Source of the DNA: an uncultured Isosphaeraceae bacterium
GTDB taxonomy: Bacteria; Planctomycetota; Planctomycetia; Isosphaerales; Isosphaeraceae
Assembly: GCA_945957605.1 (NCBI GenBank)
Contig: CAMFLR010000018.1
Span: forward strand, 62,001-126,000
Reading direction: 5' to 3'
Length of the DNA stretch: 64,000 nucleotides
In this document: positions 7,034-32,285 of the stretch, piece after piece
Numbering within the stretch: position 1 is the first letter of the stretch
How the letters are laid out: the number at the start of each line of letters is the position of its first letter
Notes under the pieces: generated by a model
What the model was told of the DNA's origin: nothing
What the model saw: the letters and a program-made list of their open reading frames with translations, nothing else
Databases searched by the model: none
Position numbers and translations under genes: made by a program

Positions 7034-7894
7034 TCAATGAATCGCCGACTTCTTGATCACACCACCGCGAACATCAGCCAGCGGATGAATAATCAAGAAC
7101 GCCGAGGGATCAAATTCATCGACGATCGTTTTCAACTTACCGATTTCTAGCCGCGTGACGACGCAAAATAAAATATCCTGCTCCGAGCCCGACATCCCGC
7201 CGCGTCCCTTGTAGATCGTCACCCCGCGCGCCAGGCGATTGATGATCGCCTCGCGAATCGGACCGCTCTTCTCGCCCGAAATAATTGTCACCGCCGTGAA
7301 CTGTTCCAGACCATGCAACAAGAAGTCAAGCGTGCGCGAGGCGGCGACGTACGTCAGGATCGAATAGAGAGCCTGTTCGACGCCCAGCGTGCTTGCCGCG
7401 GCGAGAAAGATCACGATATTCAGACCGAGAATAATGTCACCGACGCGGAGCAGCGAACTCCGTTTGCTCACGAGCAACGCCGCGATTTCCGTCCCGTCGA
7501 GCACGGCATTCCCGCGCATCGCCAGGCCGATTCCGGCACCAAGAAAGAACCCGCCGAACACGGCCGTTAAAACTTTGTCCTGGGTGACATCAGGAAAATC
7601 GATCGTCGCGACGCAGATCGCCAGTCCGACAATCGCCAGCGCGCTTCGAATGGCGAACGCACGGCCGAGGTGGCGATATCCCAGGGCAATAAAGGGGAGG
7701 TTGATCACGAGCAAGAGCGGCCAGAGCGGCCAATCCAGGCGAATCGATAGCAACATCGAAATGCCGGTAACGCCGCCGTCGATGAAATGGCTCGAGAGCA
7801 AAAAACCTTTGATCCCCATGGCGGCCGAAAGCACGCCCGCAATGATGGAAACAAAGTTCATCACTTCGTGAAGTACGCCCGGTTTCTTCGACAT
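7034..7894 (-). CDS. YitT family membrane protein (YitT_membrane plus DUF2179)
   Basis: A 286-residue protein with the YitT layout: five or so hydrophobic segments over residues 12-190 (including FVSIIAGVLSAAMGIKGFLL, FIDGGVTGISMLLS and GAGIGLAMRGNAVLDGTEIAALLV) and a C-terminal soluble domain of the DUF2179 type (TAVTIISGEKSGPIREAIINRL, then RGVTIYKGRGGMSG and EQDILFCVVTRLEIGKLKTIV). The G-x-GGSDG-like family segment appears here as RGNAVLDGTE. The protein lies in the inner membrane. Function is unknown in general; some relatives are suspected transporters. An AAGG element is upstream of the ATG. It follows pyruvate kinase on the same strand by 86 bases and may share its transcript. Confidence 0.88.
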   Translation of the reverse strand: MSKKPGVLHEVMNFVSIIAGVLSAAMGIKGFLLSSHFIDGGVTGISMLLSIRLDWPLWPLLLVINLPFIALGYRHLGRAFAIRSALAIVGLAICVATIDFPDVTQDKVLTAVFGGFFLGAGIGLAMRGNAVLDGTEIAALLVSKRSSLLRVGDIILGLNIVIFLAAASTLGVEQALYSILTYVAASRTLDFLLHGLEQFTAVTIISGEKSGPIREAIINRLARGVTIYKGRGGMSGSEQDILFCVVTRLEIGKLKTIVDEFDPSAFLIIHPLADVRGGVIKKSAIH

Positions 7895-7980: not shown

Positions 7981-9465
7981 TCAAGGAATGATCTGTACGC
8001 GCATGGCGTTGTGCGTGGGATCATTCGGAATCATGCCGCGAATCCAGATCAGGTTATCGCCCGACTGCACCAACCCGCGCTCGCGCGCCCAGTCGATCGC
8101 GAATGCAAGCGCTGCCTCGACATCGGTAATATCAGGCGCAACCAGCGGCGTGACACCCCAACAAAGCGCCAGGGCACGCGCCTTCTTTTCATCCGGCGTG
8201 AGGGCGATAATCAGCGTGTTGTTTCGCGCCTTCGAAGCAACCAGCGCGGTGCGTCCCGAATGGCTGGCGACGACGAGCAACTTCGTGTCGAGCCTTCGAC
8301 TGGCAAACGCCGCCGCGCTGATGATCGATTCGGTGATCTTGCTCACCCGCCGGCCGATTTGCGGCTCGTTGTTCGGCCGAGGCGCCGCATCGATCTGAGG
8401 CCGAAGCGCCGCGCCCGGACCGGCGAGATACGCCTCCGCCTCGCGAACAATCCGGCTCATCGTTTCAACGACTTCGATCGGAAACTGCCCAATCGCCGTC
8501 TCGCCCGAGAGCATCACCGCGTCAGTTCCGTCGAGCACGGCGTTGAAAACGTCAGTCGCCTCGGCGCGAGTGGGCCGGGTCGACGTCTCCATGCTGTTGA
8601 GCATCTGCGTCGCGGTAATCACCGGCACCCATGCCTTGTGGCAAAGCGAAATGATCCGCTTCTGCAAAGCAGGCACCCGGGCGACGTCCATCTCCACACC
8701 AAGGTCACCGCGCGCAACCATCACGGCGTCGGTCGCAGCGATAATCGCGTCGAGGTCGTCGATGGCTTGCGGTTTCTCGATCTTGGCGACGATCCGCGAT
8801 GCGCAGCCGCGCTTCTTCAACTCCGACCGCAATTGGTCGACATCGGCCGCCTTGCGCACGAACGAAAGCGCGATGTAATCGACTTCGTGTGTCGCGCTCC
8901 AGTCGAGGTCGCGCAGGTCTTTTTCGGTAAGCGCACTGAGCTTGAGGTTAGCGTTGGGCAGGTTGATCCCCTGCTTCGACCTCAGCTTGCCCCCCAGCGT
9001 CACTACCATCCGCGCCTCGCCGGGCGAAACGCTCTGCACGGTCATGGCGATCGTGCCGTCGGCAAAGAGCACAACATCGCCAACTTTCAGGTCGTCGACC
9101 AAGTCAGCGTAGGTGCAGGTCAGGCGCTTGGGGTCGTCGCTGGGTGTTTGATCTCGGACCAGAACAAACTCGTCGCCCAGGCGGCAATCGACCACGTCGC
9201 CGGCAATCGGCCCCAGTCGCAACTTCGGCCCGCCGAGATCCTGCAGAACTGCGATCATCGCGCCCGATTCGGCGCTGGCCTGACGGATCATCGCCAGCGA
9301 TTGCGAGTGTTCCTCGTGGGTGCCGTGCGAGAAGTTCAGCCGGAAGACGTCGACGCCCGCCGCGATCAACGAACGGATCGTGTCGATGTTTCGCGAGACA
9401 GGACCAAGAGTTGCGACGATTTTCGTCCGTACTTGTCCGGCTGGTTCGCTCTGGTGGATCGTCAT
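7981..9465 (-). CDS. pyk: Pyruvate kinase
   Basis: The 494-residue product catalyses phosphoenolpyruvate plus ADP to pyruvate plus ATP, the last step of glycolysis. Visible motifs: TKIVATLGPVS at the N-terminus, FRLNFSHGTHEEH (substrate and metal site), the B-domain region, IVAKIEKPQAIDDLDAI with the catalytic Lys, MVARGDLGVEMD binding the metal, ATQMLNSM, and MLSGETAIGQFP. The C-terminal domain (residues about 360-494) contains LLVVASHSGRTALVASKARN. Start 9465 has GAGG five bases upstream; the frame extends to 9513 without coding character. Length is near the usual 470-490 residues. Divergent from the membrane GTPase module. Confidence 0.97.
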   Translation of the reverse strand: MTIHQSEPAGQVRTKIVATLGPVSRNIDTIRSLIAAGVDVFRLNFSHGTHEEHSQSLAMIRQASAESGAMIAVLQDLGGPKLRLGPIAGDVVDCRLGDEFVLVRDQTPSDDPKRLTCTYADLVDDLKVGDVVLFADGTIAMTVQSVSPGEARMVVTLGGKLRSKQGINLPNANLKLSALTEKDLRDLDWSATHEVDYIALSFVRKAADVDQLRSELKKRGCASRIVAKIEKPQAIDDLDAIIAATDAVMVARGDLGVEMDVARVPALQKRIISLCHKAWVPVITATQMLNSMETSTRPTRAEATDVFNAVLDGTDAVMLSGETAIGQFPIEVVETMSRIVREAEAYLAGPGAALRPQIDAAPRPNNEPQIGRRVSKITESIISAAAFASRRLDTKLLVVASHSGRTALVASKARNNTLIIALTPDEKKARALALCWGVTPLVAPDITDVEAALAFAIDWARERGLVQSGDNLIWIRGMIPNDPTHNAMRVQIIP

Positions 9466-9842
9466 GGCACCTCGGTAAGTTCTCGGAAGCAGGTGTCTGT
9501 TTCGGCCACCCAAACCGTTCCCTCAGCCTTGCCGCTGCCCCTGCTTGGGACTGGGGAGCCTGACAAACCCCGCAAGTCGGGTCAACATCAGACCAAAACG
9601 GGGACAATTTTTGGCGCTCTGAACCGATTAACAAATGGGAGCGAGCGCGCAACGAACAGGGATCCGGAAACGACCGGCTGAACTGCGGTCTCGAAACGCA
9701 ATTGACGGGCCGAGACTCGCAAAACGGAAGAATCAAAGGCATAATAGCAATGGGTTGGTTTGCGCCCATAACGTGGCTCCCCCGGCCAGTGGACGCGGCA
9801 ACTTCACGACCGAGGGCATAACCTTCAGGGCCACGGCACGTT
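9466..9842. other. Divergent intergenic region before the membrane GTPase module
   Basis: This gap separates pyruvate kinase (minus) from the first gene of the four-gene module (plus). It becomes A-rich around 9715-9750, where a CATAAT hexamer is visible at about 9738, but I found no matching -35 at normal spacing. No protein-coding or RNA feature is convincing here. Confidence 0.35.
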
Positions 9843-11771
9843 ATGAAGCGTATTCTCGCCGCGATCATGCTGCTCACCGCTCTCTGTGCGCTGTTCAAGC
9901 TCACTGTGAAAGAGCGCGGGTGGAACGGTCCGGAAACCGTTGAGCCAGAAATCGTTACAGCACCTGCGGCAGACGCGGGAGCCGAGCTCGTCGCCAAGTA
10001 CCCCGACCAGGCCGACCTGGTGAAGCGGGTGTTCGACGAATATCGCCAAAACGCCATCGCCATCGAGCACAGCGACGGCCTCCGCGGCCTGACGCTGCTC
10101 GACAAGCTGGGCGTCGAGACGATTTTCCTCTACGAACGCCACCCCAACGAGTTCCGTCGCCTCCGCGACAGTCTTTCCGACAACGCAGCGGCCGACATTC
10201 TGCTGCACTGGCGTGAATATTTCAGCCTCAAGCACTCGGACGACGCCGATCGTCGCGTGCTGATCTCCGAGATCGCCCGGCTCACCCCCGCCCAGCGCAA
10301 AATTGCGGCAAAGTATCCGAATATTCTTCCGCTCTTACTGACCGAGCCGGAAGGAGTTATGTCGCTCATCACTCGCTGGACCGGCGAGCCGAACGACCTG
10401 ACCGACGCCCTCGCCCTGCTCGGCTTCATCAGCCTCGAGCCCGGCGCGGCCGATCTCCGCGGCGCGATTCGGACGCTCGACAGCGACGGCCCGCTCGCCC
10501 TCGCAGCCTTCCGCGTTCACGGACTCGACGGCTTCGCGCTCGTGTCGATGTATGGCCAGGTGCTGCACGAACTTGGGTCGGCCATGCCGCTCGACAAGGC
10601 CCTCATCGTGCTCCGCGTGAACTCCGAGTACGTCGACGAGTTGCTCCGCACCCATCGCCCCGCCACCGTGGCTGACCATCTGCGACACGTCGCAGCAGCG
10701 CGGCTGACCGAGCTTGTCGGTGGTAGCACGAACGCGCTCCGACTCGTCGTTGAAGGCGGCCAGCCTGGCGAACGCGCATTGCTGGCGGCTGGTCCCGACG
10801 CAGCCGACGTCGTTTACGAAGATTTCGCCGATCCCGCACTCCAGAATCAGGCGATCGATGCCTTGGCCCAGCATGGGAAAATGGCGCTGGCGATGCTCGA
10901 TAAGTACGCGGCCGACAGCGAGTTCCGCGAGATTCTTCAGCAGTATGGTTCGTCGGTCATCCCGCCGATCGCTGCCGTCGACGCCAATCCCGAAACACTC
11001 ACACTTCTTCGGTCGAAATCGAAGCTCACCTGGAAGGAATGGACGGCGAAGAGCGTCCTGTCGCTGACCGGCGAGAACGGTCAGGCTGCCATCGGATTGA
11101 TCAAGCGCGACGGCATTGACCGGGCGAATGAGTTGAACTCGTCGGAAGTTGGTTTCTACCAATTCCTTCCGATGTATGACCTCTTCCACCTCGGTCACGT
11201 CGTCAGTCGCGGACACGCGCCGACTTCGGGCGAAATGACCTGGGCACTCGTCGACGGCTGCTTCGTCGTGATGGACGTGCTCAGCCTCGCCGCCCTTCAG
11301 CCCGAAGGCGCTGCGGCAGCCGAAGCGGCGCGAGCCGAAGTTCGAGGCGCGGCCAAGCAAGTGATCAAAGCCGTCGGTTCCGAAGCAGCCGAGGAAGCGG
11401 GAGCCACCGTCGGCAAGGCGTTTGCACGCCGAGGGGCGGAAGCGGCTTCGCTGCATCTTTCGAAATGGTGGGCAGTTCGGGCGGCCGGCGGGACCTATCA
11501 AATCCTCCAGCGCATCCCGGAAGCCCTCACCAAGCTCACCGCTCCTGAACTCGCGAATCTCGGCCGGGCGCTCTGCCTCAAGGCCGGTTACCGTCTCAGC
11601 ACGCTCGCACCCATCCGGTTCGTTAAGGGGGGTGTCGAGGTTGTCAAAGCCATTCCGCCGGTCAAGGGTTTGAAATACCTCGGCGTCCAGGCCGCTCAGG
11701 CGAGCGTGGGTGTCTTTGGATTTCAGAAAATGGAAGAACACCTGAAATCCCGCCGGCCGCAGTCCCCCTGA
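9843..11771 (+). CDS. Membrane-anchored helical protein, first gene of GTPase module
   Basis: A 642-residue protein of no family I recognise. Residues 4-22 (ILAAIMLLTALCALFKLTV) form a signal anchor. Residues 35-450 are mostly charged amphipathic helices, including NALRLVVEGGQPGERALLAAGPDAAD and DPALQNQAIDALAQHGKMALAML, resembling helical-repeat scaffolds. A second hydrophobic stretch (WALVDGCFVVMDVLSLAAL) lies near residue 470, followed by an Ala/Glu-rich helix and a basic C-terminus. The segment LTWKEWTAKSVLSLTG recalls GRTGWEFFTSKVL in the next gene's product, suggesting shared ancestry. It heads a run of four same-strand genes; the next starts 82 bases downstream. A scaffold role in the envelope is inference only. 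Confidence 0.75.
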   Translation: MKRILAAIMLLTALCALFKLTVKERGWNGPETVEPEIVTAPAADAGAELVAKYPDQADLVKRVFDEYRQNAIAIEHSDGLRGLTLLDKLGVETIFLYERHPNEFRRLRDSLSDNAAADILLHWREYFSLKHSDDADRRVLISEIARLTPAQRKIAAKYPNILPLLLTEPEGVMSLITRWTGEPNDLTDALALLGFISLEPGAADLRGAIRTLDSDGPLALAAFRVHGLDGFALVSMYGQVLHELGSAMPLDKALIVLRVNSEYVDELLRTHRPATVADHLRHVAAARLTELVGGSTNALRLVVEGGQPGERALLAAGPDAADVVYEDFADPALQNQAIDALAQHGKMALAMLDKYAADSEFREILQQYGSSVIPPIAAVDANPETLTLLRSKSKLTWKEWTAKSVLSLTGENGQAAIGLIKRDGIDRANELNSSEVGFYQFLPMYDLFHLGHVVSRGHAPTSGEMTWALVDGCFVVMDVLSLAALQPEGAAAAEAARAEVRGAAKQVIKAVGSEAAEEAGATVGKAFARRGAEAASLHLSKWWAVRAAGGTYQILQRIPEALTKLTAPELANLGRALCLKAGYRLSTLAPIRFVKGGVEVVKAIPPVKGLKYLGVQAAQASVGVFGFQKMEEHLKSRRPQSP

Positions 11772-11853
11772 TTTGCCACAACCCCGGAATTCTCTCCCGC
11801 TTACGACGCCGACTCCGGCCCTGCGTGCCGGACCAAGTTCCAGGACCCGAATC

Positions 11854-12831
11854 ATGCGTGATCTCCGAATCGTCGGCCTTCGATGGATCGTCTCGGCCGC
11901 GCTTATTGCGCTCTTGGCGATGCCGGGGAAGGTTCAGGCAGGCAAGCTCTCCTGGCTCGACGATGTGGTGAAGGAAGTCGTCCGCGAGGCGGAAGTCGGC
12001 GGCAAGGTCGCCGTAAAGTCTGCCGACGAAGCCCTTTCCGCCGGCAAGTCGAGCGGTCGCCTCTTCGCTCGCGAAGCCGCCGACGAAGGGCTCGAACTCG
12101 TCGCGCATCGCGCCGATGAGATCAGCCGTCTCGCCAAGGGTGCCGGGGCCGCCCCCAGCGAGGCGCTGCTCCAGTCGCGCTTCGCCAAACTGCTCAAGCC
12201 CGAGCCCGAAATGCTCCGCGTCTTCAAGACGCTAGCCCCGGCCGAAAAGCGGCTCGTGGTCGAAATGGGTGAAGCGGCCCAGCAGCTCGCCAAGCGTTTC
12301 CCCGGTCAGGCTGAGTCGATGATTCGCGAGTTGGGCACCGAAGGTCTTGCCGCCGTAAGAGTTTATGGCGACGACGTGGCCGAGATTCTCGTCAAGGAAG
12401 GTTCGAGCGCCGTTGGCGTGCTCCGCAAAACCGGCCGCACCGGCTGGGAATTCTTCACCAGCAAGGTCCTGCCGAACAAGAAGAAGCTCGCGGCTGCTGG
12501 TGTCCTCGGCCTCTTCATTGCCAACCCCGACAAGTTCGTCGACACCGCCGGCAACGCCACCAAGTACGCCATCGAGCAGTTCTCGAAGGCAGGCATCTCG
12601 CTCGCGGGCGCAATGGGTGATGGTGCGATCAAGGGCCTTGGCAACACCTTCGGTAGCCTGATCGCCTCGCTCGGCATCTCCGAGACGGCGGCGCGTGTCA
12701 TCGGCATCGGGGCTGCGGTGTTGGTCGTCGCGTTCTCGGTGATGGTGCTCGTCGGCGCTCCCGTCCGCTGGGCCCTCGGCCCGTTCGTCACGGTGATTCG
12801 CCTGTTCCGCCGACCCAAAGCCGTCCGATAA
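11854..12831 (+). CDS. Exported membrane protein, second gene of GTPase module
   Basis: A 325-residue protein starting MRDLRIVGLRW, with CAGGAC nine bases before the ATG. Residues 8-29 form a signal peptide ending near KVQAGK. The middle is helical and rich in Ala, Glu and Lys (KSADEALSAGKSSGRLFAREAADEG; AEKRLVVEMGEAAQQLAKRFPGQ). Hydrophobic segments occur at about 217-230 (AAAGVLGLFIANP) and 283-312 (VIGIGAAVLVVAFSVMVLVGAPV), followed by a basic tail (RLFRRPKAVR). The region before the first segment (VYGDDVAEILVKEG, GRTGWEFFTSKVL) resembles parts of the preceding protein. I know no family for it. The upstream part of the same frame (from 11773) has no coding character. Confidence 0.72.
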   Translation: MRDLRIVGLRWIVSAALIALLAMPGKVQAGKLSWLDDVVKEVVREAEVGGKVAVKSADEALSAGKSSGRLFAREAADEGLELVAHRADEISRLAKGAGAAPSEALLQSRFAKLLKPEPEMLRVFKTLAPAEKRLVVEMGEAAQQLAKRFPGQAESMIRELGTEGLAAVRVYGDDVAEILVKEGSSAVGVLRKTGRTGWEFFTSKVLPNKKKLAAAGVLGLFIANPDKFVDTAGNATKYAIEQFSKAGISLAGAMGDGAIKGLGNTFGSLIASLGISETAARVIGIGAAVLVVAFSVMVLVGAPVRWALGPFVTVIRLFRRPKAVR

Positions 12832-12883
12832 GATTCAAGGGCAACCTGGATGCCCATTCGACGTTAATAGCCCATCTTGCCAA

Positions 12884-12905
12884 GCGCGGAATGTTCTTTC
12901 CGCGC
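12884..12905 (+). other. Hairpin between module genes two and three
   Basis: GCGCGGAA and TTCCGCGC form an 8-bp stem with a six-base loop in the 110-base gap before the GTPase gene. No T-run follows, so it is more likely an RNA-processing, attenuation or stability element than a full terminator. Its role is not known. Confidence 0.4.
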
Positions 12906-12941
12906 GATGGTTTCGTCTGCGCGGTGGAATGAGGCCTGTTC

Positions 12942-15266
12942 ATGGCGAATCGACGGAAGGGACATCTCGACGCCGTCGAGCGCCGGCTGACCGGTGCCAA
13001 GAAGATCGCACTGTTCGGCCACCGCAACGTTGGTAAGACGACGCTGCTAGCGATGTTCTATCGCCAGGCGTCGACCGGTCAGGTACCGGGTGTGCGCTTG
13101 GCGGCCGTCGACCCTCCGAGCGCCGAGTATCTCGCCGAGAAGATCCATCAAATCGAATCGGGCGAGCCGCTTGCCGGTACCCTGGCCGAGACCGAGCTGC
13201 GGCTGCGGCTCTATCACGGCCCGGCCCGGTTCGACCTGATCGTCAAGGATTACCAGGGCGAACACGTTACGCTGGGTAGCGACGAGCCGATCCAGCAATT
13301 TTTCGCCGATTGCGACGCCGTGCTCCTCTGCCTCGACCCCGAAGGTTCGTCGCATCCTGCCGAGCGTCGTCGTCGCCAGCAAGAAGTGGAAAACCTGCTC
13401 GAGCGGTACATCGACGGCTCGAAAGACGGTACGACCGATCGCCCTGTCGCGCTCTTGCTGACGAAGTTCGACCGCGTGATGGCCCAGGCTGGCTCCGGTG
13501 GCCAGGAAGCGGTCGAGCGGCTCGTCGAAGCCCGCTACGGCATGACTCGGCACTTGCTCGCGCGTCACGCACCGCGCGGGGCGATCTTCGCGGTCAGCTC
13601 GTATGGCCGAGGCGCCGTTGATGGCCGTCCTCCCGCCGAGCTTCATCCGTTCGGCCTGGAAGGCCCACTCGGCTGGCTGGCCGATCAGCTTGAAGCTAAC
13701 GATCGCGACCAGCTCGAATGGCTCTGGGACCTCGCTCCCAAGGACCTCCCGCGGCTAGCACGCGGAGTCGCGGCCTACGAGCGGCGTTACCCCAACACCG
13801 AACGCACCAACACATTCCGCAAGCGTCTCGCCACCGCCCGCCGCAAGCGTACCCGACGCGTTCTCGCAAGCTGCGTCGTTGCGCTTGGGCTCGTCGCCGC
13901 CGGTCTTGCCGGGTACGACGCCTACGGCTATCGCGAGGCCGTCGCGTTCGAGGCCGATCAACAGCCGGCGACCTTGGTCGAAACCACGTGGAACGACCTG
14001 CTGACCTGGCATCCCACCTTGCGTTACTTCTGGCCCGCCCGCGCCCGGCAGGCTGAGGAAAAGCTGGCCGAGTGGAAGGTAAAGGCCGCCCAAAATCGCG
14101 TCGCGGCTGGCACGGCCGACCCGGCGATTCGCGAACAGCTTGCCATGCTCAAGGAGCAGCGCCCCGCGCTCGCGCCTGAGATCGCCAAGGTCGAAAAGTC
14201 GCACGACGAAGCCCGGCACGACTCGCGCTGGAAGGACGTGAAAGCCGAAGCGATCGCCTCGGCCGATAAGCCCGCCGCGATCGACCTTGCCCTTCGCGCA
14301 TTCCTACGCGAATTCCCCGACTCGCCGCGCCGAACCGAAGTCGAAGCAATGATCGTCGCGAACCAGGCCCGCGTCGCCGAACGGCAGTCGTTGCTCGAGC
14401 GCAGGGTGATTGACGACCTCATCCGCACTGCCGCACTGCCCGACGCCGATTATCCCGACCTCATCGACCAGTCGCGGGCGTTCCTTAAAGATCATCCCGA
14501 AAGCACCCACCGCGCCGAGGTCGAGCGGCTCCAAGCAGGATTCGTCAAAACGCTCGACGACCGTCAATTTGAGCGTGCCAAAACCTTCTCCCGCGACTTC
14601 CCCACGCACTATCAAGCGCGGATCGAGAAGTACCAGGAATATCTCAAAGCCCACGAAGGCGGCGGCCTGCACACCAGCGAGGCCCGAGAGGCGAAAGACC
14701 GCATCCTTCGCGAGTGGGACGACAATTCGTACCGCGTCGGCTACGAGCTCTACACCACACATCCCGAAGACGCCGAAGGTGTTGCGGCGCGAATGCGCGA
14801 CTACCTTCAGCAGCATCCCGAAGGCCGCTACGTCACGCCAGCGAAAGACTTCCTCGCCTGGTGGGATAAGGTGACCGTCCCCGGCAATTACAAGGTGACG
14901 GCCCTGCGCGGCGAGTTCGATCCCGAAGTCGGCAAGTATCTTTCCGGCGGCGGACCCGACCTGGAAATATCGATCGAAGTCGGCGGCAAGACGTACGGTC
15001 CATCGCCGACGATCGCCAACTCGCACAAGCCAGTCTGGCGCTACACGTTCCCGCAAGCGATCGTCTGGAAGCTGGGCGACCCGGTGACGATCAAGGTCGT
15101 TGATACCGACTGGTCCGACTCGACCGTCGTCGTGCTCAACAGCAAGCCAGGCGACCCACTGGCGATGCGGCTTTTGAGCGGCACCGTGAGGCCGTCGAAG
15201 GGGGGGCACACCACCCTCTACTTCGCGTCGGACTTCAAGATGCCGGTTCTGCCCAGGCCCGAGTGA
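12942..15266 (+). CDS. Membrane-anchored P-loop GTPase with C2-like C-terminus
   Basis: A 774-residue protein. Residues 20-250 are a GTPase-like domain: Walker A GHRNVGKTT at 26-34, DYQGEH at 103-108 as the G3 position, CDAVLLCLDPEG, and LLTKFD at 172-177 as G4. A basic stretch (RKRLATARRKRTRR) precedes one membrane helix at about 307-325. Residues 330-640 are charged helical repeats with short ALRAFLREFPDSPRRTEVE-type units, recalling TPR-like tethers. Residues about 648-750 (YKVTALRGEF, DLEISIEVGGKTYGPSP, GDPVTIKVVDTDWSD) resemble a C2 beta-sandwich. The next gene begins 10 bases after the stop. I infer a nucleotide-controlled switch on the cytoplasmic face linked to a periplasmic rod and C2 tip; TRAFAC-type classification is from motifs. 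Confidence 0.8.
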   Translation: MANRRKGHLDAVERRLTGAKKIALFGHRNVGKTTLLAMFYRQASTGQVPGVRLAAVDPPSAEYLAEKIHQIESGEPLAGTLAETELRLRLYHGPARFDLIVKDYQGEHVTLGSDEPIQQFFADCDAVLLCLDPEGSSHPAERRRRQQEVENLLERYIDGSKDGTTDRPVALLLTKFDRVMAQAGSGGQEAVERLVEARYGMTRHLLARHAPRGAIFAVSSYGRGAVDGRPPAELHPFGLEGPLGWLADQLEANDRDQLEWLWDLAPKDLPRLARGVAAYERRYPNTERTNTFRKRLATARRKRTRRVLASCVVALGLVAAGLAGYDAYGYREAVAFEADQQPATLVETTWNDLLTWHPTLRYFWPARARQAEEKLAEWKVKAAQNRVAAGTADPAIREQLAMLKEQRPALAPEIAKVEKSHDEARHDSRWKDVKAEAIASADKPAAIDLALRAFLREFPDSPRRTEVEAMIVANQARVAERQSLLERRVIDDLIRTAALPDADYPDLIDQSRAFLKDHPESTHRAEVERLQAGFVKTLDDRQFERAKTFSRDFPTHYQARIEKYQEYLKAHEGGGLHTSEAREAKDRILREWDDNSYRVGYELYTTHPEDAEGVAARMRDYLQQHPEGRYVTPAKDFLAWWDKVTVPGNYKVTALRGEFDPEVGKYLSGGGPDLEISIEVGGKTYGPSPTIANSHKPVWRYTFPQAIVWKLGDPVTIKVVDTDWSDSTVVVLNSKPGDPLAMRLLSGTVRPSKGGHTTLYFASDFKMPVLPRPE

Positions 15267-15276
15267 CGACCGTTTT

Positions 15277-16641
15277 ATGTCGTCAGTAACTCTGCGATAC
15301 GAGCAGGCGGTTTACGGCAGCTTTCCCTTCTGGGACAAAGGCTACGCCGTACTCGCCCGCTCCCCCGGTTGCCGCGACGAATGGATCGCCGATCTCCGTG
15401 CAGCCTGTCAGCGCTACGGTGAACGGCCTGCGGGCGCAGCAGATGCGGGCGGAGTCATCGCGCTCAAACTACCAAGCGGCCCCTGGGCGATCATCGCGCC
15501 CCTGCCCCAAGGCATGGACGATCGCGGACGTCCCGGAGCCGTCGCGTTTCACGCCCTCTTTGTTTCTGGTGCCGACTATCGAAAAGCCGGCGCCTTTCCG
15601 TTCGCGTTCGTCCCCCTGTTCCGTCACGACTGGTCGGCCGAAACGACGACGCTCGAAACCGGCGAGTTCAACCTCGAACAAGTTATACCGGCTGAACCAA
15701 TATCGCCCAAAGATCCGCTCGCGCGCCGGATCGCCGAAACGCTGATGCGCGGCAAGCGTGTGGCTCTCGAAACATCGGCATCCATTGAAACTCTTGCGCG
15801 AGACATCTACCAGGCCCTTCCACTCACTCGCCGCGCCCGCGTGAGCGTATCCACCTGGTCATTCGGAAACGGCAATCGCTACGACCTCGTCGCCCTGCCG
15901 CGCTTGCACGGTGTGGCCTTCGATCGCTCGTATGTCGATCCGTCCAAGCTCACGGCCGACGATTCCGCTGAGCAAAGTTTCGCGTCGACGTCGCCACGAA
16001 CGATTCCCGCGCGGTGGTTGTGGGCGGGAGTTGCTTTGCTGGCCGCGCTGCCAATTCTTGCATTGGCTGTACGAACTTCGCGCGAGTCCAATGCTTCGCC
16101 AGCAGTAACAACTCAACCGGCCATTAATCCAACTGAACTCCCTCCCGCGCGACCCAATCATCCTGCCGAACTCCCGAACGTCACACGCCGTCGCGTCGAA
16201 GAAGGACTCGTCGGCCTGGCCGAACGATTCGGCGTCCTCGACGGCAAACTCAGCGCCGACGACCTGAAGCCCCGCACGCTCATGACGCGGCTGCGCGAAC
16301 GCCTGACCTATAACGGCCCGCTACTCTCTGCCTCGCAACTCGCCGATCTCGAAAAAACCGCCGACGGCCCGCGCCTTCACGGCTGGCACGATCACCTGCT
16401 CCATTTCCTCCCCGATCGCGCCCTGCCCGCCGATTTCACCGACGGCCCGCTCGACTGGCAGCTTCAAGTGCTCGCGTGGACCTTCCATGTCGATCTCGCC
16501 GCTCGTCCGCTCGAAGAATGGCCCGCACATCTTGCCGAGTCGCTAAGCCCGCCGTTCGTCGTGCGGTCTAGCAGCCTCGAAGACACTTACCCGCCGCTCG
16601 TGGAATACGCCAAATTCTTGCGTCGACTTCCCAGACGATAA
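15277..16641 (+). CDS. GTPase-associated protein 1-like membrane protein
   Basis: A 454-residue protein whose first 220 residues (EQAVYGSFPFWDKGYAVLARSPGC, then KLPSGPWAIIAPLPQG, GAVAFHALFVSGADY and VSTWSFGNGNRYDLVALPR) resemble, from memory, the N-terminal domain of GTPase-associated protein 1 (GAP1-N) described with NTPase-centred conflict systems. One membrane helix follows at about 247-266 (WLWAGVALLAALPILALAV), then a helical C-terminal region to residue 454. It starts only 10 bases after the GTPase stop, so the two are almost certainly cotranslated partners. Known relatives are mostly soluble; the membrane helix here matches the membrane anchoring of the other three module products. The exact role is unproved. 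Confidence 0.72.
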   Translation: MSSVTLRYEQAVYGSFPFWDKGYAVLARSPGCRDEWIADLRAACQRYGERPAGAADAGGVIALKLPSGPWAIIAPLPQGMDDRGRPGAVAFHALFVSGADYRKAGAFPFAFVPLFRHDWSAETTTLETGEFNLEQVIPAEPISPKDPLARRIAETLMRGKRVALETSASIETLARDIYQALPLTRRARVSVSTWSFGNGNRYDLVALPRLHGVAFDRSYVDPSKLTADDSAEQSFASTSPRTIPARWLWAGVALLAALPILALAVRTSRESNASPAVTTQPAINPTELPPARPNHPAELPNVTRRRVEEGLVGLAERFGVLDGKLSADDLKPRTLMTRLRERLTYNGPLLSASQLADLEKTADGPRLHGWHDHLLHFLPDRALPADFTDGPLDWQLQVLAWTFHVDLAARPLEEWPAHLAESLSPPFVVRSSSLEDTYPPLVEYAKFLRRLPRR

Positions 16642-16895: not shown

Positions 16896-18446
16896 CTAGT
16901 CGATCAGCGCCTGCAAAATCGCTGATTCTTCGAGATGCTTGGCCCAAAAACGCGGTGTTGACCAGGGCTGGTCGTCGGGGAGTTCCACGGCGGCACCCTT
17001 GGCGAGGAAAAACTGCACCAGATCGAAACGGCGGTGCAAAACGGCCCACGTCAGCGGTGTGAAACCGAAGAAGCAGTCACGGGCGTTGATGTTCGCCTGA
17101 AATTCTAACAGCACTTCCATTGCCGGAATCGTGTTGGGGAACGCCGTCAGGAAGTGCAGCAGAGTGTTGCAGCCGGATTCGTCGAGCACGTTGGGGTCGG
17201 CGCCGGCCTCAAGAAAGAGTCGCAGTAAATCAGGGTTTGGGCTGGCGCGGAACAACGTCCAGAGACCGATCTCCTTGGGGTTGATGCCGTGAATCAAGGC
17301 CAGTCGCAGCGTCTGGGCGGCTTCCGTGGGACGCTGAGGATCGGGGATGTGGATCGCCTGCAGGGCCAGCTTCGGGTTTTGGTGGAGCACAGCCGCCAAG
17401 GTAGTGATGTCCATGCAATGGATCGGCACTGATCCACCGTAAGAGGCAATCAAATTCGCCATCTCGCGGTTGTGCTCGATCGCCTCCAGCATCGCTACTT
17501 CAGCGCCATCGGTCTGGGCGTTGGGATTCGCACCGTGCTCGAGCAGCATCTGTACCATCGCCAGATCGTTGAGTTTCGCCGCGGCGACCAGCGGAAAAGT
17601 GAGATAATTGTCGGCCTCCTGGGCGTTGGGATCGGCACCGGCAGCCAGCAGCAGCGCGACGATCTCGCGCCGGCCAAACTCGGCGGCGCAAGACAGCGGA
17701 CGCTTCTTGCAGGTTGCCTGAAAATCGAACGCACGCGGGTCAGCGGCCAGAAGCGAGCGGACCTTGTCGATATCACCCTTCGCGCAGGCGAGATTCATAT
17801 CGTAAGGAGCGCCGCGGGCGAGAAGCAGCTCGAACAGGCCCCAGCGCGGGCGGGCGTAGGTATATCCGTGATTGCGAAAGAGCGTGACGTAAACCGGCGT
17901 GAAGCCGAGATTGTTCGCGACGTCGAGCGTGGCGCCGTGGTCGAGCAGAAACGTCATGAACTCGGCGCTCTCGGCGGTGTCCTCCGCCTGCGCCGCCAGG
18001 TGCAAAGGCGTATTGCCATCCTCGTCGGTGGTATTCACGGCCGACGGATCGCGCAATAGCTCGCGACGAAGGGCGGCCTGGTCGCCTTCGCGCAGCGCAC
18101 GCCGTAAAGGACCTTCCGCAAGCGCCAGCGGCTGTCGTGCCTCGATTGCCCGGTCGATGAGCGACACGACGTCGCCAAAGCCACGGGCGGCTGCGATATC
18201 CACGCTTCTCAAGGGAATCCGACAGAGGTACTGCACGGCGACATTCGCGTCGGCACCGTGCTCCAGCAAAAGCTTCACGATGCTGGCACGGCCTTCGCGG
18301 ACCGCGTAATGCAGAGGCGCGAGCGGTCCTTCGGGAACCAAGCACGCCAGCGATGGCGTCGCGTACAGCAGAGCGCGCACCGTCGCTTCGTCGCCATCGC
18401 GACAGGCCGTCACCATGCGGGCGCCATCGGTGTTTGCGTCGGTCAT
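16896..18446 (-). CDS. Ankyrin repeat protein
   Basis: A 516-residue protein made almost entirely of ankyrin repeats. Clear units include PLAPLHYAVREGRASIVKLLLEHGADANV near residue 45, DGNTPLHLAAQAEDTAESAEFMTFLLDHGA near 143, RPLSCAAEFGRREIVALLLAAGADPNAQ near 247, NDLAMVQMLLEHGANPNAQ, NPDLLRLFLEAGADPNVLDESGCNTLLHFLTA, and FGFTPLTWAVLHRRFDLVQFFLAKGAAVEL at the end. There is no signal peptide or membrane helix, so a cytoplasmic protein-binding role is likely; the partner is unknown. It is convergent with the GTPase module and divergent from the lipoprotein gene. The start at 18446 lacks a strong ribosome binding site. Confidence 0.85.
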   Translation of the reverse strand: MTDANTDGARMVTACRDGDEATVRALLYATPSLACLVPEGPLAPLHYAVREGRASIVKLLLEHGADANVAVQYLCRIPLRSVDIAAARGFGDVVSLIDRAIEARQPLALAEGPLRRALREGDQAALRRELLRDPSAVNTTDEDGNTPLHLAAQAEDTAESAEFMTFLLDHGATLDVANNLGFTPVYVTLFRNHGYTYARPRWGLFELLLARGAPYDMNLACAKGDIDKVRSLLAADPRAFDFQATCKKRPLSCAAEFGRREIVALLLAAGADPNAQEADNYLTFPLVAAAKLNDLAMVQMLLEHGANPNAQTDGAEVAMLEAIEHNREMANLIASYGGSVPIHCMDITTLAAVLHQNPKLALQAIHIPDPQRPTEAAQTLRLALIHGINPKEIGLWTLFRASPNPDLLRLFLEAGADPNVLDESGCNTLLHFLTAFPNTIPAMEVLLEFQANINARDCFFGFTPLTWAVLHRRFDLVQFFLAKGAAVELPDDQPWSTPRFWAKHLEESAILQALID

Positions 18447-18630
18447 CAGTGTGACGCTTTCATATCAAAGGCGCGATCGAATGGCCCCGCGCTCGAGGAG
18501 GATCTTCTCGATCTCTGCAATTCCAACTTCTCGCGCCCAGGCCTGGTCCCACTCGCTTCGTCAGATCGTCGTCTTTGATACTACACCGTTGCCGTTCCTT
18601 TTCCGCATGGCTCGCGCCTACAATACGGGC

Positions 18631-19164
18631 ATGCGAAACGGTCAAAAATGGATGAATGTGCTTCTTTTGCTATTCGCCGCACTCACCGGCTGCGGTCGCG
18701 GTGAAAACGCAACACCCGCAACCGTCGCCGCTGCCGAGAGCAAGTGGAAAGCCGCGGGCGTGAAGAACTACAACCTCGAATGGTCGAATTCCGGGCTCGG
18801 TACGGGGCATTATCGCGTCTTTGTGCGCGATGGCGAGGTTAAGGCAATCTACAGCGTTCTCAACAATGGGCGAGAGATTGTCGCCAAGCCGGCTCAGCCA
18901 CGGTTCTACTCGGTCGAAGGTCTGTTCCTCACGATCAAAGACGAAATGGCCCAGCTCGATTTACCAACGCCTTTCGGCCAGCCCAAAGGGACCACGGCCA
19001 TCCTCAAGTTCACGCCCGACTCGTCGCTCGGGTATCCCAAAAGTTATCGCCGCGATGTCCTCGGCTCGGCGAAAGGTGTCTCAATCGACGTGCAATCGCT
19101 CGACCCCAATCCTCAGATTAACATTCCGCCACCCGTCTCCGGAGACGCCGCCCCCGCGCGTTAA
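18631..19164 (+). CDS. Lipoprotein resembling DUF6174
   Basis: A 177-residue protein beginning MRNGQKWMNVLLLLFAALTGC: a lipoprotein signal with lipobox ALTGC, Cys21 being the acylation site. The mature part (AAESKWKAAGVKNYNLEWSN, HYRVFVRDGEVKAIY, EGLFLTIKDEM, YPKSYRRDVLG) follows the pattern I remember for DUF6174: W and NYN near the start, then V-x-DG-x-V and a late YP motif. The frame is open upstream to 18415, but those residues overlap the divergent ankyrin gene and lack coding character. It is an envelope protein of unknown function. The following methyltransferase gene begins about 100 bases downstream. Confidence 0.7.
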   Translation: MRNGQKWMNVLLLLFAALTGCGRGENATPATVAAAESKWKAAGVKNYNLEWSNSGLGTGHYRVFVRDGEVKAIYSVLNNGREIVAKPAQPRFYSVEGLFLTIKDEMAQLDLPTPFGQPKGTTAILKFTPDSSLGYPKSYRRDVLGSAKGVSIDVQSLDPNPQINIPPPVSGDAAPAR

Positions 19165-19261: not shown

Positions 19262-20065
19262 GTGGCCAAATCGCCGAGTTCGAAGGAGCAGCCCGCCGCC
19301 GATAACGACCAGGGAACCGCCTGGAGCCGTCAGGCCACGCGCTACGACGAACTCTTTCTCGACCCCTTCCGCCCCGGCGTCGAAAGTCCACTCCTCCCCG
19401 CACTCGCCGCCTTGCCCAATCCCGAAACGCTCACCATCGCCGACCTCGGCTGCGGCACAGGTCCGCTCTTGCCGCATCTCGTCGGCAAATTCGGCCGCGT
19501 GATCGCCCTCGACTTCGCCCCCGCCATGATCGCCAAGTCGCGCAAGCGTTTGGGCAAGCGTGCATCTCAGGTTGAATTTCTCCAGCGCTCGATGGACGAA
19601 CTCGACGACCTCGCCGGAACGCTCGACGTCGCCGTCGCCGTCAACTCAATCGTCATGCCCGACGTCCGCATCATCGACCGTGCCCTCAGCGCGATCCATG
19701 CCGCGCTCAAGCCGGGCGGCCGCTTCTTCACCGTCTTACCGGCGATGGACGCGATTCAATATCACACGATGATCCTCCACGATCACGCACTCGACCGCGG
19801 TCTCGAACCCGAAGAGGCCGAGCGTCATGCCGTGTTTCATGCCGAGCATCATTACTACGACTTCGCCTTCGGCCGCTTCGGTTTCCTCGGCCTTCGTCAG
19901 AAATTCTGGCAGCCCTGGGAAGCGACTCACCGGCTAAGCAAGGCGGGGTTCCGCGATATCGAGCTGAGCAAGGTTCTCTATCCCTGGGACGACAACATCG
20001 CCGGATTCCAGGATTTCACCCACCTGCCCCAAAGCTGGGATTGGTTCGTCCAGGCCCGCCCCTGA
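19262..20065 (+). CDS. Class I SAM-dependent methyltransferase
   Basis: A 267-residue protein with the Rossmann-type SAM-binding motif I (LTIADLGCGTGPLLPHL, about residues 58-75), motif post-I (VIALDFAPAMIAKSRKRL), then DVAVAVNSIVMPD and LKPGGRFFTVLP as motifs II-III. The C-terminal part (EEAERHAVFHAEHHYYDFAFG) may bind the substrate. The frame opens with GTG at 19262 and no ATG is available before motif I, so GTG is the likely start despite a weak ribosome binding site. The substrate cannot be told from sequence. A small membrane protein gene follows 37 bases downstream and may be in the same operon. Confidence 0.87.
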   Translation: MAKSPSSKEQPAADNDQGTAWSRQATRYDELFLDPFRPGVESPLLPALAALPNPETLTIADLGCGTGPLLPHLVGKFGRVIALDFAPAMIAKSRKRLGKRASQVEFLQRSMDELDDLAGTLDVAVAVNSIVMPDVRIIDRALSAIHAALKPGGRFFTVLPAMDAIQYHTMILHDHALDRGLEPEEAERHAVFHAEHHYYDFAFGRFGFLGLRQKFWQPWEATHRLSKAGFRDIELSKVLYPWDDNIAGFQDFTHLPQSWDWFVQARP

Positions 20066-25301: not shown

Positions 25302-26078
25302 TCAGGTACCGAATTCAGGACGACGGGTGTTGAGCTGCGACTGCAACCGCTGAATGATCGACGAGTGCATCTGCGAAACCCGCGACTCGCTCAGATCCAA
25401 GGTCGCACCGATCTCCTTCATCGTCAATTCTTCATAATAGTAAAGAATGATGATGAGGCGTTCGTTGCGATTCAGCCCCTTCGTCACCATGCGCATCAGG
25501 TCTTTGCGCTGGAGGCGACGGGTCGGGTCTTCACCCTTCTTGTCCTCGAGAATGTCGATCTCGCGGACGTCCTTGTAGCTGTCGGTTTCGTACCACTTCT
25601 TGTTCAGGCTGATGAGGCCAACAGCGTTGGCGTCCATTGCCATCTTTTCGTACTCGGGCATCGGCAGGCCAAGGCGTTCGGCCAGCTCGCTGTCCGTCGG
25701 CGGACGGCCGTGCTGGGCTTCGAGAGCCTTGCGGGCCTCTTCCATCTTCGAGTGCTTCGACCTGACCAGGCGAGGAACCCAGTCCATCGTTCGCAGTTCG
25801 TCGAGCATTGCACCTCGAATACGAGGCACGCAGTACGTTTCAAATTTCACGCCACGACCGAGGTCGAAGGCGTCGATCGCGTCCATCAGGCCGAAGACGC
25901 CGGCGGAAATAAGGTCGTCGAGATCGACCCCTTCCGGCAGCCTCTGCCAGATGCGCTCGGCGTTGTACTTCACCAGCGGCAAATACCGCTCGACCAGCCG
26001 GTTACGCAAGGGCGTGGTTGGGTGTTCCTTGAACTCCCGCCAGAGTTCCGTCACATCCACGTCCAGCTTGGTTGACAT
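25302..26078 (-). CDS. fliA: Flagellar-type sigma factor FliA/WhiG (sigma-28)
   Basis: A 258-residue sigma-70 family factor without region 1. Region 2 is visible as NRLVERYLPLVKYNAERIWQ, then DLISAGVFGLMDAIDAFDLGRGVKFETY and RIRGAMLDELRTMDW, the signature of FliA/WhiG proteins. Region 3 spans about 115-170, and region 4 ends with LTMKEIGATLDLSESRVSQMHSSIIQRL, the -35-binding helix-turn-helix. GGAGG eight bases upstream sets the start at 26078. It is the last gene of the flagellar block, where it would direct RNA polymerase to late flagellar promoters. A FlgM anti-sigma factor is not in the window. Confidence 0.95.
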   Translation of the reverse strand: MSTKLDVDVTELWREFKEHPTTPLRNRLVERYLPLVKYNAERIWQRLPEGVDLDDLISAGVFGLMDAIDAFDLGRGVKFETYCVPRIRGAMLDELRTMDWVPRLVRSKHSKMEEARKALEAQHGRPPTDSELAERLGLPMPEYEKMAMDANAVGLISLNKKWYETDSYKDVREIDILEDKKGEDPTRRLQRKDLMRMVTKGLNRNERLIIILYYYEELTMKEIGATLDLSESRVSQMHSSIIQRLQSQLNTRRPEFGT

Positions 26079-26313
26079 CCTGCAGACCTCCATGTCGGCT
26101 GCGAGAGCGGCACATCCTGTGCAGAGTTCTTTGTGAGGAGCTTCGCTCACGCCGGCAAGCGTTGGCGGCGTGTTCGACACCTCCAGCCCGGCTGCCCGCT
26201 CAGGAGCGAAGCCGTGCCCGCTTCCTCACTCAAACTCTCTCGCGGTCCAAGGAACCCGTATTCATCCTAAGTATCGGAAAATCGTCGCGATCGGCTTGAG
26301 TCGTACTGTCGAT

Positions 26314-26538
26314 TTATTGCGAACAATCGGCAGCGACAGCTTCGCTCGCGTGCTGCGCAGGGCGGCCGAACCGCGCCGCGATCGCCGGGAACAGTCGCAA
26401 GAGTGCTCCTTGCGCACTGCGCTTCTGTTCGGCCTTGCACGCACGAACGAGCCGGGATTCGGCAGCCAGTCCCGGCGGCCCTTCCCTCCCTTCAAGAGAC
26501 CGGACCATGCGGCGGAGTCCATCGGCTTGGTCGGACAT
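26314..26538 (-). CDS. Stand-alone FlhG-type DQAxxLR activator peptide
   Basis: A 74-residue protein starting MSDQADGLRRMVRS. Residues 3-9 exactly match the DQAxxLR motif that, in full-length FlhG/FleN, forms the N-terminal helix that stimulates FlhF GTPase activity. It begins 62 bases after flhF on the same strand with GGGGGAAG upstream of the ATG, the position where flhG normally lies. The MinD-type ATPase domain is absent: no KGGVGKT motif is present in this or any other frame before fliA. The rest (SRLVRACKAEQKRSAQGALLRL) is basic and unlike MinD. It could be a minimal FlhF activator or the remnant of a decayed flhG. Confidence 0.6.
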   Translation of the reverse strand: MSDQADGLRRMVRSLEGREGPPGLAAESRLVRACKAEQKRSAQGALLRLFPAIAARFGRPAQHASEAVAADCSQ

Positions 26539-26600
26539 GGCACTTCCCCCGAAAACACAATCGAACGAGATTCAGATGATTTGTCGCAACAAGGCGGAGA

Positions 26601-27734
26601 TCAGCCGACAACATCCTGCCCCAGAATCAGCCGGGCTAGCCGGGCACGATTCGCAGGTTCAATGTCATCAGGCACAGCTTGGCCGGTTGTGATGTAGCTC
26701 ACCGGGCGATTCGATTGATTCAGAACCGCGAGCAAGCCCCCCATCCCCTCGGCCTCATCCAGCTTTGTCAGAATCAAGCGATCGGCGCGAACCATCGCGA
26801 ACCGTTCGACGGCGGCACGCAGGCTACGCTCACCGGCCGTTGCGCTCAAGACCAGATGGACCTCATCTGGCTGCGCAGCGGCAAGAAAATCGGCGAGCTC
26901 GCGAATTCGCACCTCATCGCGCGGGCTGCGACCCGCCGTATCGACGAGCACAAGATCAACATCCCCCAACTCGTCGATCATCCGCCGCATCTCATTCGGC
27001 GAATTGGCAACAACGAGCGGCAGGTCGATAATTTCCGCATATGTCCGCAATTGTTCGACGGCAGCAATCCGATAGGTATCAACTGTGACCAAGCCTGGAC
27101 GCAGCCCCTTGGTCAGCTTGAAGTCGGCAGCGAGCTTGGCGATCGTCGTCGTCTTCCCCACGCCCGTCGGCCCAACCAGGGCCACAACCCTGCGCGTGCC
27201 AGCTACGGCGGCAATCGGCGGGGCGATCGAAATACAATCCTCAACCGCTTCCGCGAGCGCAAGTTTGATAGCTTCGGGCCGATACACCTCGTCGGCTTCA
27301 AGGCGATCGGTCACGTAACGCGCGAGGTAACGGCAGAGTGTTTCGGGAACGTCCGACTCAAGCAACGCGGCGTAAATTGGTACGAGCGACGAAGGCAGAT
27401 CGGGCAGCAAATGATCGAGCCGGCCAACGCGGCTGAGGTCGGCGACCGCCGCGTGCAACTGGCCGAGTTGTTCGCCCACTTGCGAGCGAATAGCGTCGTT
27501 CGTTGTGGGCGATGTATATGCGGACGTGTCGACAGAAATCGGTGTTTCGGAATTGAGCGGACGATCGCTGGCGATGACTTCGACCATCTCGCGACGGCCC
27601 AGGCCGAACAGCCGGCGGCGACGAACTTCGCGAGTGTTGAGGATCACGGCATCACCGCCCAGGTCTCTGCGCACGTGCGCGAGCGCCTCTTTGAGCGAGC
27701 CAGCCCGATATCTCCTCGCATTCCCACTCGTCAT
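26601..27734 (-). CDS. flhF: Flagellar biosynthesis GTPase FlhF
   Basis: A 377-residue SRP-type GTPase. The N-terminal B-like domain (YRAGSLKEALAHVRRDLGGDAVILNTREV) is typical of FlhF. The NG domain follows: VVALVGPTGVGKTTTIAKLA (G1), VTVDTYRIAAVEQLRTYAEI (G2 region), LVDTAGRSPRDE (G3), LILTKLDEAEG (G4) and VSYITTGQAVPDDIE near the end. FlhF places the flagellar base at the membrane and sets its site and number. ATG 27734 has GGAGG upstream; a TTG four codons earlier overlaps that site. It follows flhA by 23 bases. Its usual partner FlhG appears here only as a short activator peptide. Confidence 0.96.
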   Translation of the reverse strand: MTSGNARRYRAGSLKEALAHVRRDLGGDAVILNTREVRRRRLFGLGRREMVEVIASDRPLNSETPISVDTSAYTSPTTNDAIRSQVGEQLGQLHAAVADLSRVGRLDHLLPDLPSSLVPIYAALLESDVPETLCRYLARYVTDRLEADEVYRPEAIKLALAEAVEDCISIAPPIAAVAGTRRVVALVGPTGVGKTTTIAKLAADFKLTKGLRPGLVTVDTYRIAAVEQLRTYAEIIDLPLVVANSPNEMRRMIDELGDVDLVLVDTAGRSPRDEVRIRELADFLAAAQPDEVHLVLSATAGERSLRAAVERFAMVRADRLILTKLDEAEGMGGLLAVLNQSNRPVSYITTGQAVPDDIEPANRARLARLILGQDVVG

Positions 27735-27757
27735 CGCTTTGCTCAACCTCCAGCGCC

Positions 27758-29896: not shown

Positions 29897-30086
29897 CCGT
29901 TCCTCTCCTCCTTAAACGTCCGTGTCGCGATCGTGGGTCGTCGAGACAGAGCAAATCTTCCACGCTCCCGCACGCTTTGCGGGTGGTGAATTCACTGCGA
30001 GCAGTTCGGGGATGAGCGTCGGATGTGTGGCCGAACGATACCCGCGACCCCCTGATGTGTCCAGCCCGATTATCAGCCCGTGGATT

Positions 30087-31112
30087 TCAGGAAATGGGCC
30101 AAATATCCGTAAGTTCGCCGAGGATTTCAGGACTCAGCGGCGTACCGGGACGACTCGACGCAAGGGCCAGCGCAATCGCGAGTTTGGGTGCCTCAACAAT
30201 CTCAACTCTCGCGGCCGCGGCCGCCTTCCGCATCGCCAAACCCGTCGCCCCCTTCGCCGACGATCGCACGTTGATCCGCGACGCCGTCGGAGCCCCCGCA
30301 AGCACGACAGTAATCCCCTGTTCGCCCGTCACCACGAGCCTTGCCCCCTGCATCAACTCGGGACTATTCCCGCGCAATGCTTGCGCCAATCTTCGCCGGC
30401 GCGATTTCGCCGCCGGATCACCATCCATCGCCTTCTGATCTTCTCGCGCCTCGTCGGGAGTGAGTCGCAACATCGACTCGAACCGCATTCGCCCCAGCGC
30501 GTAATCAATCAGGCCGAGCACAGCCGCCGCGACAGCCATCGTTACCAGCAGCCCGCGCACAAGATCGCACCAGCCCCGCGCCATGGCGGGAATCGGCAAT
30601 CGCGCGTACCCATTGAACTCGTTCATGCGCATGCCAATCGCCCAAACAGCGACGGCCAGAATCACAATCGTTTTGCCGAGAATCCACGCACCTCGACTCA
30701 ACCTTGCACCTAGGCCACGTCCACCGACGGCCCACAATCGCCCAGGATCGAGAGCCAGTACGCCCGGTGCCCACAGCCCGCCCACCTGCGCCTGATGCGC
30801 GGCAATTCCAGCCGCAACCAAGCCAAGAAACAGCAGGATCAGCGGACCCAGCACGCCAAACGCGGCATCCCGCATGAGGGTGACACTTTCACCCACCTCG
30901 AGCGAGAGCGGCAGTTCACCTGTCCACGGAGTCCTCACCAGCGTGACCAAGCCGGTCGCAAGTTGCTCGCCGCAAACACCGAGCAACAAGCTTCCTGCAA
31001 GCAAAGCGGCAGCGCCGGTAAGCTCGGGACTGTGCGACACCTGGCCGCGATCGCGGGCTTGTTGCCGTCGCAGTTTTGATGGTGCTTGTGTGCGATCTTC
31101 CGACTCGGACAT
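30087..31112 (-). CDS. flhB: FlhB export-switch protein lacking the NPTH motif
   Basis: A 341-residue FlhB. The N-terminus EDRTQAPSKLRRQQARDRGQV, four membrane segments within residues 30-205, and the linker EDQKAMDGDPAAKSRRRRLAQ are normal. In family members the cytoplasmic domain then has VVVNPTHYAVAL, where the Asn-Pro bond is cleaved autocatalytically to switch substrate specificity. Here the aligned stretch is VVTGEQGITVVL: NPTH is replaced by GEQG at residues 263-266 with no change in length. Later conserved parts (EIVEAPKLAIALA, GTPLSPEILGELTDI) remain, so the gene is not frameshifted. Autocleavage is predicted to be absent. It starts 6 bases after fliR. Confidence 0.93.
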   Translation of the reverse strand: MSESEDRTQAPSKLRRQQARDRGQVSHSPELTGAAALLAGSLLLGVCGEQLATGLVTLVRTPWTGELPLSLEVGESVTLMRDAAFGVLGPLILLFLGLVAAGIAAHQAQVGGLWAPGVLALDPGRLWAVGGRGLGARLSRGAWILGKTIVILAVAVWAIGMRMNEFNGYARLPIPAMARGWCDLVRGLLVTMAVAAAVLGLIDYALGRMRFESMLRLTPDEAREDQKAMDGDPAAKSRRRRLAQALRGNSPELMQGARLVVTGEQGITVVLAGAPTASRINVRSSAKGATGLAMRKAAAAARVEIVEAPKLAIALALASSRPGTPLSPEILGELTDIWPIS

Positions 31113-31118
31113 CGCCGC

Positions 31119-31865: not shown

Positions 31866-31936
31866 GAGTTGGTTCCGTCCTGCAAAGTCCTAGCGGGCTA
31901 TCTCAGCAAGATTCCGGAGAGTGCTAACCTCACACT

Positions 31937-31961: not shown

Positions 31962-31995
31962 TCTTGGCGACCGCTCCGCGGGCATGAATTTCGTA

Positions 31996-32187: not shown

Positions 32188-32285
32188 CCACCCAACACTA
32201 CCCTTTGCGTTGTCCCTACCAGTTAGCTCCTAGTCATCTTAGGCAGGGTGTCACTTGCACCCCTCGTCTTCCATTTGCAATCAGG

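Follow-up and report, generated by a model that had tools for sequence, protein, structure and literature searches.

The stretch of DNA analyzed here (64,000 nucleotides; hereafter, the window) comes from an uncultured Isosphaeraceae bacterium and carries, at positions 9843–16641 of the plus strand, four consecutive open reading frames of 642, 325, 774 and 454 aa, separated by 82, 110 and 10 bases (Table 1). An earlier reading made from the letters of the window without database searches (the sequence-only reading) had described four consecutive genes of this extent, and we agree: orthologues of equal extent are present in dozens of genomes, and because these match the four lengths the frames can be taken as real genes. 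At the ancestral locus, the module lies between a divergent pyruvate kinase gene, which belongs to the same cluster in 11 other loci, and a methyltransferase gene. Directly behind gene 4, the window has an ankyrin-repeat gene (16896–18446, minus strand; PF12796, 3.4e-42) that did not cluster with genes of the other loci compared and is therefore probably a local insertion. A flagellar cluster with FliA-, FlhF-, FlhA-, FlhB-, FliR- and FliP-like genes, as judged by eye, lies 3′ of the module (25302–34193, minus strand); its FlhA was confirmed by PF00771, and this flagellar neighbourhood is ancestral in many Isosphaeraceae. Comparisons were made with 45 Isosphaeraceae genomes (37 in some counts), which include Singulisphaera acidiphila DSM 18658, Paludisphaera, Aquisphaera and Tautonia, within 249 genomes of the class; the neighbouring family is Gemmataceae (f3).

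Table 1. Positions of the four genes, their predicted parts and the ancestral neighbours in the window.
Feature	Position	Strand	Basis
Divergent pyruvate kinase, ancestral upstream neighbour, outside the module	7981..9513	-	NF004491, 504.6 bits; locus clusters
Gene 1, 642 aa, membrane-anchored all-helical (solenoid-like) envelope protein, Isosphaeraceae-specific	9843..11771	+	family conservation, AlphaFold2
Gene 1, N-terminal membrane helix, residues 4-22	9852..9908	+	family-mean hydropathy 2.21
Gene 1, second hydrophobic helix, residues 467-485, with invariant D471 and D478	11241..11297	+	hydropathy, alignment
Gene 2, 325 aa, envelope protein, hydrophobic near the N-terminus and with a membrane helix near the C-terminus	11854..12831	+	hydropathy, orthologues
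Gene 2, domain common to the T4CP/ParB-associated envelope family c36, residues 126-243	12229..12582	+	hhalign
Gene 3, 774 aa, DO-GTPase2	12942..15266	+	PF19993, 41.6 bits (cut-off 27)
Gene 3, GTPase domain, residues 22-195 (G1 26-33; G3 DYQGE 103-107; G4 174-177)	13005..13526	+	PF19993, alignment
Gene 3, membrane helix, residues 307-325	13860..13916	+	hydropathy
Gene 3, predicted extracytoplasmic helical-repeat region, about residues 330-640	13929..14861	+	PF13525; position inferred from domain order
Gene 3, C2-like domain, D-x-D loop in most members	14880..15236	+	PF00168, 9bkw_A, loop aspartates
Gene 4, 454 aa, GAP1-like protein	15277..16641	+	orthologues, PF20013 in family
Gene 4, putative GAP1-N2 domain, residues 9-126, motif DDxGRPGAxAFH	15301..15654	+	PF20013
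Gene 4, membrane helix, residues 250-268, not conserved in family	16024..16080	+	hydropathy, alignment
Gene 4, helical C-terminal half, which relatives have lost repeatedly	16204..16641	+	alignment, tree
Methyltransferase, ancestral downstream neighbour, outside the module	19262..20065	+	locus comparison

The third gene had been credited with intact G1, G3 and G4 motifs, a membrane helix, helical repeats and a C2-like end, and each of these elements was recovered, the C2-like end less firmly. PF19993 matched all of the 22 orthologues analyzed, and the alignment showed G1 (GHRxVGKT), G3 (DYQGE) and G4 (T[KR]xD) in 22/22, with an invariant Walker B glutamate (DxxGE), the residue that marks the DO-GTPase family (PMC7159879). 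Considering that a strongly basic stretch lies on the N-terminal side of the membrane helix, the positive-inside rule predicts that the GTPase domain is cytoplasmic and the remainder outside. In that remainder, TPR-like repeats of the YfiO/BamD type (PF13525) were matched in 12 of the 22 members (best, 2.4e-7) and a C2 domain (PF00168) in 8 (best E, 0.009), and the gene 3 profile weakly matched 9bkw_A, a solved chain with a C2-like sequence (E = 0.01). An N-terminal CxxC, as expected of a zinc ribbon, was absent from all 22 members. Profile searches found gene 3 as a single copy in 45/45 Isosphaeraceae genomes; on plasmids, only a remote match to the GTPase domain was obtained.

The likeness of gene 4 to the GAP1 N-terminal domain, also proposed in the sequence-only reading, was below the Pfam cut-off in the window protein itself, which scored 14.5 bits against PF20013 (cut-off, 24), but was backed by its relatives. 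PF20013 matched 15 of 25 family members (best E, 1.2e-4), and L217, a homologue from Gemmataceae that the gene 4 family profile retrieved, reached 25.8 bits. By sequence comparison, gene 4 is thus a predicted divergent GAP1-N2 protein, the match being real through these relatives. GAP1-M was marginal (2/25 members, best E 0.0014; E = 0.094 in the Gemmataceae locus L221), and GAP1-C was not matched. Gene 4 was found in 42/45 Isosphaeraceae genomes by profile search, but in about half of the family it consists of the N-terminal domain alone or of this domain plus a terminal helix, and on the GTPase tree the gene switches between its full, middle and short forms no fewer than eight times. The claim that every product carries a membrane helix therefore holds by hydropathy for all four window proteins but not for gene 4 throughout the family, and its membrane anchor is evidently not needed everywhere.

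Gene 1 has no named homologue in Pfam, NCBIfam, PADLOC or the PDB sequences, and no signal-peptidase motif was seen at its N-terminal helix. Its AlphaFold2 model is of middling confidence (mean pLDDT 73), with a helical array at residues 45–430. When the model was compared with the PDB using Foldseek and VIA-align 2, only generic helical repeats were retrieved (best Z, 5.0 on 48 residues), and a loose likeness to TALE-type and designed solenoids was not used. The gene was found by profile search in 43/45 Isosphaeraceae genomes (35/37 in the 37-genome set) and in no other genome among the 249 of the class, and no homologue was found on plasmids. A separate stretch of another genome (G015:C1:782485-782829, L239) matches profile positions 465–593 of gene 1 (E = 1.1e-23) within a 1784-codon open frame; judged from sequence, it is a putative partial relative or fusion of the C-terminal part of gene 1.

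Gene 2 is likewise without named homologues in Pfam, NCBIfam, PADLOC and the PDB sequences. We placed its start at 11854, since an alternative TTG start at 11773, giving 352 aa, was unsupported by relatives; its hydrophobic stretches then fall at residues 11–29 and 283–301. Compared with the PDB in the same way as that of gene 1, its AlphaFold2 model, again of middling confidence, yielded only generic helical repeats (best Z, 5.1 on 42 residues), which were likewise not used. No significant internal repeats were detected in the profiles of either gene 1 or gene 2, and a relationship between the two was rejected (hhalign probability 12.7). Gene 2 was present in 35/37 Isosphaeraceae genomes, and no relatives were found in viral contigs. 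By profile comparison, its central domain matched a family of envelope proteins, c36 (hhalign probability 97.4, E = 1.1e-11; E = 5.2e-13 in a second comparison), and in the reverse search the c36 profile found gene 2 orthologues in some 30 Isosphaeraceae genomes.

The c36 family is patchy across the class, occurs once on a conjugative plasmid (pSINAC03), and is usually encoded directly behind a second membrane-anchored protein. A VirD4-type coupling protein (PF02534, 8.5e-68) lies near c36 in about one third of the copies examined, most of these also with ParB. A patchy planctomycete module can be recognized that consists of an anchored coiled protein and c36, in some copies with ParB and a coupling protein of the VirD4/TraG type close by; examples are L235 5729–10884, in the genome of the window itself (G000:C1, about 841.7–846.9 kb), L236, L237, L240 and L273–L292. 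A single open frame covers c36 and its upstream partner in two genomes (L275, L277). A match of c36 to this partner was discarded as an artefact of two fused ORFs in the alignment. The ParB/VirD4 form (G000:C1, about 842–847 kb; pSINAC03) resembles the window module in that a gene 2-like protein lies beside a membrane-anchored helical protein, with an NTPase present in several copies. It differs in the nature of the NTPase, a T4SS coupling protein, in the presence of ParB, in its patchy occurrence, once on a conjugative plasmid, and in its upstream protein, profile comparison having ruled out that gene 1 is a relative of it. The recurrence at c36 loci of an anchored helical protein followed by a gene 2-like protein suggests, by analogy, that genes 1 and 2 may act as a pair.

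All four genes are essentially universal, single-copy and vertically inherited in Isosphaeraceae. Nearly all genome misses correspond to incomplete assemblies, the exception being gene 1 in G030, which is 98% complete but split into 520 contigs. Where the rates could be compared, which was in few genomes, the divergence of the module genes was similar to that of pyruvate kinase. Conservation of the neighbourhood, the check proposed with the sequence-only reading, was confirmed for retention across the family and less so for contiguity: genes 1 and 2 were adjacent in 20/34 genomes, genes 2 and 3 in 23/35, and genes 3 and 4 in 23/35. Some of these breaks are contig ends, while others were measured and span several kilobases to megabases (G024, G036). 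Parsimony on the GTPase tree gave 8, 4 and 7 linkage changes for the three pairs, which are upper estimates. The genes were retained even where rearrangement had separated them, and in G006, G023, G032 and G035 genes 1 and 2 remain paired but lie away from genes 3 and 4. Genes 1 and 2 were found together in Isosphaeraceae only, and full-length gene 3 relatives outside this family were confined to four Gemmataceae, in one of which (L213; G101:C308) gene 3 adjoins gene 4 and no gene 1 was found.

Membrane-linked pairs of DO-GTPase2 and GAP1-N2 have already been described, with planctomycetes among their carriers (Kaur et al. 2020, eLife e52696, PMC7159879). The switch pair itself is therefore not new, and the earlier statement that no described system has this set was too strong. 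The window pair probably belongs to this group, an assignment that its sequence makes through the GTPase and, less firmly, through GAP1-N2. Shared with the described systems are a DO-GTPase2 with the Walker B glutamate, a predicted GAP1-N2 gene that follows it immediately, membrane helices in the two proteins, extracytoplasmic domains behind the helix, and planctomycete hosts. By contrast, the module has a single GTPase without the N-terminal zinc ribbon(s) reported for 60% of DO-GTPases (PMC7159879), the marginal GAP1-M and undetected GAP1-C of gene 4, and no FNIII protein, Pfam giving no FNIII match in genes 1–4 or in the flanking genes (7034–7894, 16896–19164); nor was an effector gene recognized beside it. 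It has, in addition, the repeat and C2-like arm of gene 3, the two new envelope proteins and family-wide universality. What is new at this locus is the two unnamed envelope proteins encoded by genes 1 and 2, together with the family-core retention of all four genes. DO-GTPases have been tied to membrane-proximal systems (PMC7159879), and in Gammaproteobacteria their genes lie beside PSP operons, a membrane-stress role being predicted (PMC11237479). The module shares the GTPase family and the predicted membrane-stress link with the latter, whereas no PspA/B/C/F gene was recognized at the Isosphaeraceae locus.

On these results, the view that a membrane GTPase and a GAP1-like partner stand with two accessory envelope proteins is supported. 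We judge it an even call that the four genes constitute a lineage-core membrane module of Isosphaeraceae around a DO-GTPase2/GAP1-N2 switch, with a constitutive envelope role rather than that of a defence weapon. At the cytoplasmic face, the GAP1-N2 domain of gene 4 would bind the GTPase domain of gene 3 and set its GTP/GDP state; this state would pass through the membrane helix of gene 3 to its repeat/C2 arm, which may engage lipid or calcium, both putative, and a complex of the gene 1 and gene 2 products. The whole could then serve as a constitutive switch for envelope organization or envelope stress, in agreement with the membrane-stress remark on DO-GTPases (PMC11237479). These steps, leading from the GTP state to the arm and on to genes 1 and 2, are inferred, and on this view the four proteins would meet. 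A more specific version, which we hold tentatively and at somewhat less than even chances, is that a DO-GTPase/GAP1 pair, of a kind known mainly from predicted conflict systems, now works in this one family as a core trans-envelope GTP switch with a dedicated gene 1/gene 2 complex, gene 2 sharing ancestry with a protein of the mobile coupling-ATPase module.

The strongest rival holds that pairs 1–2 and 3–4 are two separate modules, adjacent through ancestral synteny and without functional cooperation. Genes 3 and 4 occur together in the Gemmataceae locus, gene 1 occurs in no genome outside Isosphaeraceae, the four genomes named above keep genes 1 and 2 apart from 3 and 4, and the c36 relatives of gene 2 have a different upstream partner and an NTPase that is unrelated; the Gemmataceae locus and the dispensability of the membrane part of gene 4 in half of the family also count against a joint switch. 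On the other hand, the order gene 1–gene 2–gene 3–gene 4 is ancestral and intact in many genomes across the family, in which the full set has been retained nearly everywhere, so we regard the two-module view as rather unlikely. As no losses exist that could be correlated, universal presence fits independent core genes as well, and co-occurrence cannot decide between joint and independent action of the two pairs.

That the module is instead an immune system of the GAP1-N2 type, in which genes 1 and 2 would be the effector or sensor, appears improbable. DO-GTPase/GAP1-N2 loci were proposed to be conflict systems with variable effectors (PMC7159879), genes 3 and 4 are of these families, planctomycetes are named carriers, and the gene 2 group also occurs beside conjugation genes. 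Yet the module is core, single-copy and vertical rather than patchy between relatives, no FNIII or known effector gene lies beside it, and PADLOC gave no convincing match. Since this distribution is unlike the one expected for conflict loci, a core envelope function is favoured over a typical variable conflict system, and the hint of such a system in the sequence-only reading was not upheld. Least probable of all, and very much so, is that the module serves as an accessory of the flagellar export/localization machinery: FliA-, FlhF- and FlhA-type genes do lie about 9–13 kb downstream, and part of the module is near FlhA in many relatives, but FlhA is nearly universal in the class, including families in which the module is missing, and in several genomes, for example G020 and G024, the two lie far apart. 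Plain ancestral synteny suffices, so that this neighbourhood needs no functional link.

The near-universal retention of all four genes thus looks like a housekeeping job at the envelope rather than a come-and-go defence. We found no experiments on DO-GTPases in the literature consulted, where the class is known from its computational proposal as a conflict switch, and a pair that is universal, single-copy and vertical in one family offers a clean place to ask whether DO-GTPases perform envelope housekeeping. Moreover, genes 1 and 2 add two conserved, unannotated envelope proteins to a bacterial family with an unusual and poorly understood cell envelope.

Relatives of the pair also occur in other arrangements. 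Several Gemmataceae loci (L216, L217, L219–L223, L230, L231) encode a GAP1-N2-like protein, mostly without a match to gene 3; it lies beside either a protein called c16, which has about 200 aa and no match in Pfam, or, as judged by eye, an oxidoreductase-like gene. In another family of the same class (f5; G159, L224 6625–8505), inspection by eye showed a DO-GTPase-like protein that carries a zinc ribbon at its N-terminus and lies beside a GAP1-like protein, which is the more usual architecture.
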